From assembly GCA_021735165.1 (NCBI GenBank), contig JAIPHP010000011.1, forward strand, positions 1-43,876: 43,876 nt of DNA, given 5' to 3'. Under the pieces are notes generated by a model. That model saw nothing but the letters and a program-made list of their open reading frames with translations. It was not told the DNA's origin and did no database searches. Below are positions 14,868 through 27,645 of this stretch, in pieces. This DNA is from Candidatus Woesearchaeota archaeon (GTDB lineage Archaea; Nanobdellota; Nanobdellia; Woesearchaeales; 21-14-0-10-32-9). The first letter of the stretch is position 1. Each line of letters opens with the position of its first letter. A program made the position numbers and the translations under genes.

Positions 14868-15154
14868 TATAATGAAAATAGCTGCTCCGAGTCTGCTAAG
14901 AAACTAAAAGTTTCTTGCACACAGAAATCAAAACTGATTTCTTCGCGAATTTCCACCCTAAATGCGCAGAAACAAAGTTTCTGGCACAACAAAAATGAAC
15001 GAACATTTTTGCGTACAATAAAAACAAAGTTTTTATTCGCATGCCAAAAATCAAAGATTTTTGAGCAGGACGGAGTACGACTAAATCAAAGCTTTTGTGT
15101 ACAATAAATGTGAAGCATTTATTTGTATTAAACCCCTCCGCTAGCGCGCAATAA
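14868..15154. repeat. multi-hairpin intergenic array, copy A
   Basis: This 287-nt non-coding segment carries at least seven near-perfect hairpins. Most have AAA loops: 14898-14916, 14923-14942, 14967-14983 (CAGAAAC-AAA-GTTTCTG), 14990-15011, 15017-15037, 15045-15063 and 15103-15123. Several centres are 24-27 nt apart, which gives a nearly regular period; two longer linkers break it. Linkers carry recurring GCACAC, GCGTACAAT and GCATGC motifs. CTCCG near 14885 can pair with CGGAG near 15072, closing the first six hairpins into a multibranch. It ends in CCGCTAGCGCGCAATAA. It is a close direct-orientation relative of copy B at 24306-24734. The open reading frame through it is not conserved at the codon level. 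It separates the kinase from the four-gene cassette. Confidence 0.8.
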
Positions 15155-24305: not shown

Positions 24306-24734
24306 TATAATGAAAATCGCTGCTCCGAGTCTGCTAAGAAACTAAAAGTTTCTTGCACACAGAAATCAAAAATGATTTCTTCGTGTATCTCCGCCCTAAA
24401 TGCACAGAAACAAAGTCTCTGGCACAACAAAAATGAACGAACATTTTTGTGTGCAATAAAAACAAAGTTTTTATTCGCATGCCAAAAATCAAAGATTTTT
24501 GAGCAGGACGGAGTATTACGACTCAGTCGCTTATCGCGATTCGCGAGAAACACAATAGTGTTTCTGTGCGCTATAAACTAAAGGTTTATACGCGTTCAGA
24601 TTGCGTGCTATCGACCTAAATGCACAGAAACAAAGATTTTTGTCCAGGTCGGGGTACGACAAAAGCAAAGCTTTTGTGTACAATAAATGCGAAGCATTTA
24701 TTTGTATTAAACCCCTTCCGCTGGCGCGCAATAA
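24306..24734. repeat. multi-hairpin intergenic array, copy B (longer)
   Basis: This 429-nt segment is a direct-orientation relative of copy A. The left parts (24306-24514 with 14868-15078) and right parts (24653-24734 with 15075-15154) are nearly identical; 24515-24652 is unique to B. CTCCGCCCT/AGGACGGAG (24389-24397 with 24505-24513, one mismatch) forms an outer stem around four hairpins. A second, shorter module starts with the same CCTAAATGCACAGAAACAAAG-like sequence and is closed by CGACCT/AGGTCG (24612-24617 with 24646-24651). In the right part B has perfect hairpins where A is decayed, for example CAAAAGC-AAA-GCTTTTG at 24660-24676. No credible gene is present. It separates the DUF212 gene from the vWA gene. 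Confidence 0.8.
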
Positions 24735-24768: not shown

Positions 24769-25728
24769 TCACACCACTCTTCTATATATAGTATTTGCAA
24801 TTCCCCATTCAAAAAATAATAGTCCTAATGCTATTAATAGTCCAAGAAATGACAAGTCTATTTTTATGTATCCTTCTTTTGTGTTTTTTGTATATTCTTC
24901 GTATGCTTGTTTTAGTTCATCTGTATTAGTAACATAAATATAAGATCCATCGGTATCCTGTGCTATGGTTCTTAGTATATCTGCATCATAATTGCTACTT
25001 ATATTGTAATATTCTGGCAAATACCCTATTGGCCCTGTGTTTGTCCCCAGTCCTATCGTGTTTATTTTCACTTGATTTTCTTTTGCGTATCTTATTGCTT
25101 GTTTTACTGAATCCGATATGAATGCTCCAAGAGTATTTACTCCGTCAGAAACAAGTATTACTGTTTTTCCTTTATCAGATTCTGTTGCAAATAGATTTGT
25201 TGCAGTTATTATTGCGCCAGGTATATCTGTACCTCCTGTTTCTGAGATTTGCATTCCTTTTAATGCTACTTTTATATCTGATTTTTTTTCTGTTAAGGGC
25301 ATTTCTATTACTGTGCTTCCGGCAAAGCTTATTAAACCTATATTTGCTTGTGAGTCTAGTTCGTCCAAGAACATTTCCGCATATTCTTTTGACGCTGTGA
25401 ATCTTGAGGGTTTTATGTCTTGCGAAGTCATACTTGCACTTGAATCTATAGCGATTACAAAATTAACTTCATTTATTTGCCCTGTATGCCAAAGTGTTGC
25501 ACCTGCTACGCTCATTATAAGTGCGAACATTATTAGTATTCTCACAACTAAATGAGTCATATTTTTTGTTAATATTTTTTGGCCTGATATTCTTTTTAAT
25601 GCTTCAAAATTCGCAAATTTTATTGCTTTGGCTCTGCTTGATTTTAAAAACCAAAAATGCGTTACAATGAATAAAGGTATGCTTATTAAGAACCATAAAT
25701 ATATAGGGTTTTGAAATTGTAAGTACAT
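24769..25728 (-). CDS. BatA-like vWA domain membrane protein
   Basis: This 319-aa protein has two N-terminal membrane helices (about 9-28 and 60-80), a von Willebrand A domain (about 88-285), and a C-terminal helix (about 295-312). The MIDAS metal site is complete, with DSSAS (Asp95, Ser97, Ser99), the TGGTDIPG threonine and VSDGVNT. This is the layout of BatA-type proteins of the Bat/MoxR system, in which a membrane-bound vWA protein works with a MoxR chaperone-like AAA+ ATPase. It is the third gene of the MoxR-DUF58-vWA operon, starting 2 nt after the DUF58 stop. In DPANN-like genomes the target is unknown; envelope protein assembly is an inference from the surface genes nearby. Confidence 0.9.
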   Translation of the reverse strand: MYLQFQNPIYLWFLISIPLFIVTHFWFLKSSRAKAIKFANFEALKRISGQKILTKNMTHLVVRILIMFALIMSVAGATLWHTGQINEVNFVIAIDSSASMTSQDIKPSRFTASKEYAEMFLDELDSQANIGLISFAGSTVIEMPLTEKKSDIKVALKGMQISETGGTDIPGAIITATNLFATESDKGKTVILVSDGVNTLGAFISDSVKQAIRYAKENQVKINTIGLGTNTGPIGYLPEYYNISSNYDADILRTIAQDTDGSYIYVTNTDELKQAYEEYTKNTKEGYIKIDLSFLGLLIALGLLFFEWGIANTIYRRVV

Positions 25729-25730
25729 TT

Positions 25731-26627
25731 TTATTCTACTCTTTTTCCTCTTCTTCTAAAAAAAGTTGTTAGTTTCTCTAAATAATCTTCATTGGTTTTT
25801 AATAGTAGGAAATCTCCTTTGCTTTTTTTGAATACGTCTGATACGTATTTTTCTTGATCTAAGTTTTTTTGCTTATATTGTTTTGCAAATTTTTTTGTGT
25901 CTACATAAATGTTTTCATTATTATAAGGATTTTTTAGTAGTACTTGTCCTCCTGTTTCTGGAAATTCTCTATCTCTTGGATCTTTTATCATAAGCCCTAT
26001 CATTTCGTAATTATCAGACATTGTTTTTATGTACCTATCCCATCCATTTTTAAAACCGAGAAAATCAGATATTATTATGATTACTGCTTTTTGATTAACG
26101 AAATTTTTTGTCATAAGCATTGCTTTTGCAAAGTCTAGATTGCCTCCGTAGTTTTCTGGATTTATTAGACTGCTTTCTATGTTTTTTAGTACCTCCACAC
26201 CTATATTGGGGTATACGCTACTTATGAATTTATCTGTAAACATTGCAAGCCCTATTGCATCTCCTGCTTTGTTTATTGCGTCTGCTAATATGTATATCAT
26301 TTCTGCAGCGTATTCACATTTTAGTTTTTCTGTTGATGTAAAAAGCATAGAATCGCTTACATCAAACAAAAAGAATACTGTAAAGTTTTTGTAGTCTTCA
26401 AATTCTCTTACTAGCGTTTCTTTTGCTCTAAGGCTTGCTTTCCAATCTATAAGTGATGCGTCATCACCATAAACATATTTTCTAAATCCTGCAAATTCTA
26501 TGCCTCGTCCTTTGAATACTGTCGCCCACTCCCCTTCTAAAGTTCTTGATAGTACATCTCTTCTTGCATTTACTTCTAGTTTTTTTAGTCCTGGGGCTAA
26601 GTCTAATTTTATTTCTTTGATGGGCAT
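25731..26627 (-). CDS. DUF58 domain protein (vWA-like)
   Basis: This 298-aa soluble protein carries the DUF58 signature GRGIEFAGFRKYVYGDDASLIDWKASLRA (residues about 40-67), followed by VREFED. A vWA-like domain with MIDAS motif DVSDSM (Asp89, Ser91, Ser93) and IIIISDFLG comes next. DUF58 proteins are the usual partner between MoxR ATPases and vWA membrane proteins, probably acting as an adaptor for metal-dependent interaction with a client. It starts 4 nt after the MoxR stop and ends 2 nt before the BatA-like gene, so translation is probably coupled. No signal peptide. Confidence 0.92.
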   Translation of the reverse strand: MPIKEIKLDLAPGLKKLEVNARRDVLSRTLEGEWATVFKGRGIEFAGFRKYVYGDDASLIDWKASLRAKETLVREFEDYKNFTVFFLFDVSDSMLFTSTEKLKCEYAAEMIYILADAINKAGDAIGLAMFTDKFISSVYPNIGVEVLKNIESSLINPENYGGNLDFAKAMLMTKNFVNQKAVIIIISDFLGFKNGWDRYIKTMSDNYEMIGLMIKDPRDREFPETGGQVLLKNPYNNENIYVDTKKFAKQYKQKNLDQEKYVSDVFKKSKGDFLLLKTNEDYLEKLTTFFRRRGKRVE

Positions 26628-26631
26628 TTTT

Positions 26632-27645
26632 TTATACTATTCTTACTTTTTGCAGTATTTCTTCTATGATGTCATCAGGAGTTATGTCTTCTGCTTGTCC
26701 TTCGAAGTTTATTAGAATTCTGTGTCTTAAGACGTTTGCGACTATTTTTTTTACGTGGTCCGGCGTAACTTGAGGTTGATTTTCTAGTAGTGCTCTTGCT
26801 TTGCTTGTTATAAACATTGCTATGCTTGCTCTTGGTGAAGCGCCAAATGCTATGTATTTTCCTTTTTGTATATTATATTTTTTTGGGTTTCTTGTAGAGT
26901 CTACTAGTCTTACTATGTATTCTTCTATTTTTTTGTCTGTATGTATTTTTTTTGTTATCATTTGAGCAGTTAATATTTCATCAGGAGTCATTAGAGGGTT
27001 TAGTTCGAAGTCTTCAAATTTTCTTAGAGTCATATTTGTTCTTAATATTTGTCTTTCTTCTTCATTGTCAGGGTATAGCATTTCTATTTTGTATAGGAAT
27101 CTGTCTAGTTGTGCTTCCGGAAGTTTGTAGGTTCCTATTTGTTCTAGTGGGTTTTGTGTGGCCATTACAAAAAATGGGTCTGGCAATTTGAATGTTTCTT
27201 TTCCTATTGTGACTTGTTTTTCCTGCATTGCTTCAAGAAGTGCTGATTGTACTTTTGGAGGACTTCTGTTTATTTCATCTCCTAGTACAAAGTTTGCAAA
27301 GACAGGTCCTTTTACTGTGTAGAATCCTTTTCCTTCTTCGTATGTTGTTATTCCTAATATATCTGTAGGTAATAAATCTGGTGTGAATTGTATTCTTGAA
27401 AAACTGCATCCTGATATTTTTGCTAGTGTTTTAATTAGGAGTGTTTTTCCAACTCCAGGGATTCCTTCAACGAGTACGTGTCCGTCAGAGAGCAATGCTT
27501 CTATTAGTGCGGTAACCATTTTTTCTTGGCCGACAAAGATTTTTGATATTTCTTTTCTAATTAGTTGAAGTTTTTCTTGGTATGGTTCTATTTCTTTCTT
27601 TATTTCTTTTAATTTTTGTTCAGAAATTTTTTGTGATTCTACCAT
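26632..27645 (-). CDS. MoxR-family AAA+ ATPase
   Basis: This 337-aa ATPase has Walker A GIPGVGKT at 61-68, Walker B FVLGDEINR with Asp123-Glu124, the MoxR insertion-type sequence SPPKVQSALLEAMQEKQVTIG, sensor 1 MATQNPLE, and a C-terminal lid with ASPRASI. MoxR proteins act as chaperones, often for metal-centre insertion or complex assembly with vWA partners. Here it is the first gene of a three-gene MoxR/DUF58/vWA operon. Upstream TATA-like AAAAAATTATAG (about 27670-27681) lies in the region shared with a divergent Lys-rich protein. Family assignment is firm; client unknown. Confidence 0.95.
   Translation of the reverse strand: MVESQKISEQKLKEIKKEIEPYQEKLQLIRKEISKIFVGQEKMVTALIEALLSDGHVLVEGIPGVGKTLLIKTLAKISGCSFSRIQFTPDLLPTDILGITTYEEGKGFYTVKGPVFANFVLGDEINRSPPKVQSALLEAMQEKQVTIGKETFKLPDPFFVMATQNPLEQIGTYKLPEAQLDRFLYKIEMLYPDNEEERQILRTNMTLRKFEDFELNPLMTPDEILTAQMITKKIHTDKKIEEYIVRLVDSTRNPKKYNIQKGKYIAFGASPRASIAMFITSKARALLENQPQVTPDHVKKIVANVLRHRILINFEGQAEDITPDDIIEEILQKVRIV

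Follow-up and report, generated by a model that had tools for sequence, protein, structure and literature searches.

Probable non-autonomous IS200/IS605-type elements with ends enlarged by double-hairpin modules in Woesearchaeota

The closest precedent for the repeats described here is found in Haloquadratum walsbyi (PMC3119063), in the elements known as PATEs and in IS605-type ends invaded by SMR-A, so the class of element is already known. PATEs lack inverted terminal repeats, carry near-terminal palindromes related to the ends of IS605-type elements, are too short to code and have a conserved short target at their borders, and their cores undergo repeat-mediated deletions; all of these features are shared by our elements. 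SMR-A of Haloquadratum is a short sequence (~110 bp, with terminal inverted repeats) that inserts without target duplication into the near-terminal palindromes of PATEs and of IS605-type elements, and is also found outside PATEs. Regarding mechanism, the reference is IS608 of Helicobacter pylori, in which the target is set by pairing with a four-nucleotide guide at the foot of a hairpin, TTAC going with the guide AAAG (PMC5934647). Two other kinds of palindrome are relevant, the REPs, believed to owe their movement to relatives of TnpA (PMC8266576), and the perfect stems that template switching is able to create and maintain (PMC8794818). Finally, fungal and algal mitochondria have double-hairpin elements, in which small hairpins are likewise paired and collect at intergenic sites.

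The window, i.e. the whole stretch of 43,876 nucleotides analysed, contains two arrays of short hairpins, A and B. A first-pass annotation had described them as runs of perfect hairpins, mostly with AAA or GAA loops, and the counts bear this out. With a stem of at least 7 and a loop of 3-8 as the definition of a perfect hairpin, A contains 7 (mean 0.20 and maximum 2 in 500 dinucleotide shuffles) and B contains 9 (mean 0.27, maximum 3), so that shuffled sequence does not yield equally many, and the loops are mostly AAA, AAAA or GAA. The rest of the window has three such hairpins with ~3 expected, i.e. chance level. Fold z-scores were -10.3 for B as RNA, -10.2 for its other strand as DNA and -5.8 for A. 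The outer stem around four hairpins in B was also found as described, and the right-hand hairpin is perfect in B (CAAAAGC / GCTTTTG) and decayed in A (CTAAATC / CTTTTGT). The exact borders (all features are given on the + strand) are 14873-15154 for A and 24311-24734 for B, and each array is preceded by ATAA. What had been overlooked is a common 136-bp core of which both arrays are variants, the pairwise arrival of the additional hairpins at fixed sites, and the absence of the core's middle part from A. The folding, covariance model and search for relatives that had been proposed were all run and were decisive.

Array B used as a BLAST query gave 87 matches at ~45 places of its own 1.1 Mb genome, a count based on BLAST only, so that copies under its sensitivity may be missed. 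Copies were also found in a sister genome (G001) and across the order, which disposes of the objection that the arrays might have no relatives. The smallest intact members measure 136 bp, consist of two stem domains and have sharp borders, starting directly after ATAA with TGAAAATC and finishing with GCGCGCAATAA. ATAA stands directly 5' of 21 of the 24 full-length copies in the own genome (the others have TTAA or ATGA, or are cut at a contig start, one copy), including B, where it occupies 24307-24310 (TTAT on the transposition strand). All 24 terminate in ATAA, in the form GC(G/A)CAATAA or a close variant. These copies are thus located 3' of a fixed short oligonucleotide, without any variable target duplication. 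Actually, at one locus of the sister genome (L148) an element sits directly in the terminal ATAA of another. The equivalent of the B locus is free of the element in the sister genome, the matching flanks being 190 bp apart there and 605 bp here, although the spacer has diverged and the junction therefore lacks a base-by-base alignment to the empty site. Adjoining B, at 24769-27645, there are genes for BatA/VWA, DUF58 and a MoxR-type ATPase, and this gene order is kept in the sister genome at least up to 26700. A three-hairpin array found just upstream of another family member (L010:1440-1500; G000:C5:7639-7696) is perhaps a decayed older element. To view the arrays as self-complementary hairpins that form a DPANN repeat family is correct, as is the statement that they represent no gene and no REP of fixed sequence.

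The core folds into two domains, P1 around H1 and P2 around H2 and H3, with near-terminal palindromes and without terminal inverted repeats. Its covariance model matches 73 genomes in a sample of 242 from the order (Woesearchaeales). In 30 aligned matches 94% of the cells pair, 32 of the 41 pairs are compensated on both sides and the covariation score is 0.55, compared with 0.15 in shuffles (0 of 500 reach 0.55) and at most 0.09 in slid controls, figures that lean upward because the alignment was fitted to the model. RNAalifold, making its own prediction from the same alignment, gave 36 pairs, 30 of them with compensation, and the nine minimal copies alone have 10 pairs altered on both sides.

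G·U pairs are common in RNA families. Here 93% of the cells are Watson-Crick, and G·T pairs are no more frequent than A·C mismatches (15 and 22 of 1183 cells), with no asymmetry between the two that would tell the folding strand. Such strict covariation with so few G·U pairs points to DNA folding as the likely constraint; it would be exerted on DNA hairpins and not on RNA, or the stems would be maintained by copying between their two arms. The pattern makes it very unlikely that the arrays are a structured RNA or a 3'-UTR or terminator element, kept for a function in transcripts, in spite of the strong predicted RNA fold. The elements had no match in an Rfam covariance-model search. The transcript reading might also appeal to five full-length copies of the own genome (L038, L006, L021, L031 and L005) in which ATAA overlaps the stop codon that ends the reading frame upstream; since in these the TAA of the target is that stop codon, insertion leaves the frame intact, and only 9 of the 24 full-length copies have a co-oriented upstream frame. 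The sharp ends, fixed target and dispersed copies, together with the guide-target covariation presented below, point instead to transposition.

The right part of the element, in reverse complement, matches the left end (LE) of an IS200 at 81-87% in the own genome (G000, best E 2.5e-10), the sister genome (best E 1.6e-10) and another related one (G010). At three loci (L097, L049 and L099) an intact Y1 transposase gene, coding for a TnpA of ~138 aa, lies beside the matching left end, and at the first two tnpA is flanked by the LE match and by a match to H1 and the right end (RE). The protein belongs to Y1_Tnp (Pfam PF01797, E ~1e-23) and in sequence searches resembles solved IS200/IS605-type transposases, ISHp608 included. 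The H1 match, covering model positions 24-50, is located just downstream of tnpA at L097, L049 and L064 and is weak (E 0.04-0.17). The right end of the element resembles that of the IS at the hairpin level only, and the latter appears to use a different guide/cut pair. The closing stems of P1 and P2 were not seen in the autonomous IS ends.

No complete tnpA is present in the own-genome assembly, and a Pfam Y1_Tnp search of it gave no match. What this assembly contains is the last 33 aa of the tnpA product (C-terminus, 88% identical) with a right end at a contig end, and two IS left ends that stop at contig ends (G000:C19:22375-22514, C16:1-139 and C31:5741-5839 for the three pieces), as expected for collapsed repeats. 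The sister genome has at least 8 contig ends bearing IS200 (L101-L108, L206, L209). This coincidence explains why the transposase gene is missing from both MAG assemblies although the element is multicopy, and related IS copies coincide with many of the contig breaks in these MAGs. The sister genome has in addition a second IS200 type (L102:140-200, in G001:C24), the right end of which shows by eye a GAAT guide and a TCAA cut site, the same pair as GR/CR of IS608. The first IS200 left end was also found in a Lokiarchaeota MAG (L098, Zod_Metabat.578), by horizontal transfer or bin contamination. A possible omega-RNA nature of the arrays was dropped because TnpB (PF07282) had no match over the cut-off in the six genomes searched.

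The tetranucleotide at the border covaries with the one at the foot of the hairpin. Read on the transposition strand, TTAT appears with AATA or AAAA, TTAA with AATT, and TTAC with AAAG, the last pair in nine genomes and several families. For elements across the order, complementarity of the fourth base held at all 45 right ends (shuffle mean 31.8) and at 37 of 38 left ends (shuffle mean 24.8), figures the significance of which the shuffles overstate because the sequences are related. In B the guide beside H1 is TATT (24514-24517), which reads AATA on the transposition strand and is the complement of the tetranucleotide at the left terminus. The left ends of the IS gave AATT with TTAA 18 times and TATT with ATAA in 8 regex rows; two rows (L078 and L079) stop too early and read TATT/ATAA by eye, and two exceptions to the rule were found (L100 and L088). 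The seven IS left ends of the sister genome have AATA with TTAT. In the own genome, the IS left ends that can be seen combine the guide AATT with the target TTAA, not AATA with TTAT; the exact match to the elements is in the sister genome.

A Y1-type enzyme together with palindromes that bear a guide of four nucleotides would also be expected if a domesticated RAYT transposase had spread the arrays as REP/BIME-like repeats. Such repeats would show a single palindrome, a RAYT-type GTAG guide and alternating copies, and what we found is a core with two distinct end domains and its own target at both borders, with guides (AATA, AAAG, AATT) that vary with the target. Furthermore, the LE is common to a simple IS with tnpA between LE and RE, and the TnpA, of ~138 aa, has no extra domains, all of which makes a RAYT-spread repeat highly improbable. 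The guide-target covariation, with its IS608-like rule, points to A and B as non-autonomous elements of the IS200/IS605 type. From the sequences compared we consider it very probable that they are PATE-like MITEs with ends enlarged by double-hairpin modules of ~50 nt, mobilised in trans most likely by the TnpA of a resident IS200.

In copy B, the site of which is empty in the sister genome, P1 is formed by the 5' arm TGAAAATCGC (24311-24320) and the 3' arm GCGATT...TTCA, which is split by a module into 24536-24541 and 24595-24598 (covarying helix 1). H1 (CTCCGCC / GGACGGAG, 24389-24513) is the probable counterpart of the IS right-end hairpin. The P2 domain (24600-24732, arms 24600-24610 and 24722-24732) corresponds to the IS left end, by its reverse-complement match and helices 4-6, and includes H2 (24613-24650) and H3 (24651-24715). 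Longer copies differ from the core by sequence inserted cleanly at five constant positions. S1 lies between P1 and H1, S2 and S4 occupy the loops of H1 and H2, S3 interrupts the 3' arm of P1 and S5 is located between guide and H2. Modules have 50-57 nt and two hairpins, 105 nt when a second pair is nested inside, or, in a few copies, 26 or 75 nt. B has all five points occupied. S1 (24332-24385, 54 nt) and S3 (24542-24594, 53 nt) have two hairpins each and are cleanly present or absent among copies. S2 (24401-24505) opens the H1 loop with an outer pair of hairpins (24401-24424 and 24480-24505) and a second pair nested between them (24425-24479), and measures 0, 50, 53 or 105 nt among copies. 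S4 (24621-24646) has a single hairpin in B and 50-105 nt in other copies, and S5 (24657-24706, 50 nt) has two.

Copy A, with its ATAA target at 14869-14872 by border comparison, is a fused derivative without the P1 3' arm, the P2 5' arm and H2, the loss spanning the interval between GGAGTA and GGGGTA repeats. By hairpin scan and comparison of copies it has S1 with two hairpins (14894-14947), S2 with four (14963-15067) and S5 with two, the first one decayed (15078-15127). Several further copies are fused in the same way, with the middle of the core missing.

In several copies S2 and S4 are filled by the same module, and across sites the modules fall with moderate support into two groups, one with S1 and S2/S4 and the other with the inner S2, S3 and S5 (z ~4-5 against stem-shuffled controls, other pairs being weaker). 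Their alignment was structurally inconsistent and gave no covariance model. A distant relative (G014) also has double-hairpin insertions, one of them at the point equivalent to S3 in one copy (L125) and absent in another (L048), and in a further genome (G207, L164) the loop of H1 contains an insertion with a hairpin. No module was found apart from core sequence, as each place detected with the B query retains some of the core or all of it. Copies sharing modules occupy different loci, indicating that module-bearing elements have probably moved. The comparison of copies suggests that modules are gained, lost or exchanged as units, and that they might originate by template switching or insertion rather than differ by loss only. 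A more speculative and rather unlikely scenario is that the modules are themselves a parasitic mobile unit, confined to the end palindromes of IS200-type MITEs and inserting into folded single-stranded loops and junctions; the arrays would then be a hyperparasite chain of IS, MITE, module and module inside module.

In one copy (L024, C1:2966) inspection by eye shows an inverted loop in the second hairpin of S1, CAAAACTG of other copies becoming CAGTTTTG, which is the mark expected from template switching. A systematic scan by script found no further inversion inside the elements. Template switching may explain how stems and modules change; as the whole explanation, with the hairpins as mere by-products of replication errors and nothing mobile or selected, it is barely credible, as it explains neither why full-length copies are dispersed and have constant ends and a constant target nor the guide-target match, and hairpins elsewhere in the window are at chance level. 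Because the presence or absence of modules is base-precise among dozens of copies, they are suitable for asking how perfect DNA hairpins arise, are copied and stay perfect.

For the non-autonomous IS200/IS605-type elements that we favour, the following mechanism can be proposed. On the strand opposite to the one given here, the left-end and right-end palindrome domains would be joined without a transposase gene between them. The Y1 (HUH) TnpA, most likely from a resident IS200, would bind the folded ends of a single-stranded DNA intermediate and cut at TTAT, the choice of which would depend on base pairing with AATA, the guide located at each hairpin foot; the element would be pasted in 3' of a different TTAT. 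The ends would have been enlarged in this genus at the five fixed points, in hairpin loops, junctions and one arm, by modules able to nest and presumably gained, lost or exchanged as units.

The first-pass annotation knew of no named family with such a layout. Regarding the core this does not hold, as its kind was already named PATE in Haloquadratum (PMC3119063); the paired modules inside end palindromes are undescribed in the open-access papers searched. Compared with PATEs, the present elements belong to another archaeal phylum and have other sequences, both ends are closed by long covarying stems, the palindromes are filled by paired hairpin modules and the core is recognisable across an order. 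It is thus an order-wide foldable DNA family in uncultured Woesearchaeota, of which we found no description in the open-access literature searched. Unlike IS608, they have no transposase gene and use several target/guide pairs, and the right-end guide and cut site follow the left-end rule. The guide-target rule has been known so far mainly from IS608 experiments, and these elements provide a natural record, over many families, of guide-target co-evolution in IS200/IS605 transposition. The double-hairpin elements of mitochondria are similar by form only; they are not tied to an IS end and have no HUH transposase. The nearest precedent for module accretion is the insertion of SMR-A into PATE palindromes, with the difference that the modules are half as long or so (50-57 nt), consist of a hairpin pair, may be nested and were encountered nowhere but inside these elements. 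Within the limits of a literature search restricted to open-access papers, what is new is the pairing and nesting of the modules, the stems that close the two domains, a fold shared across the order and the natural series of guide-target pairs.
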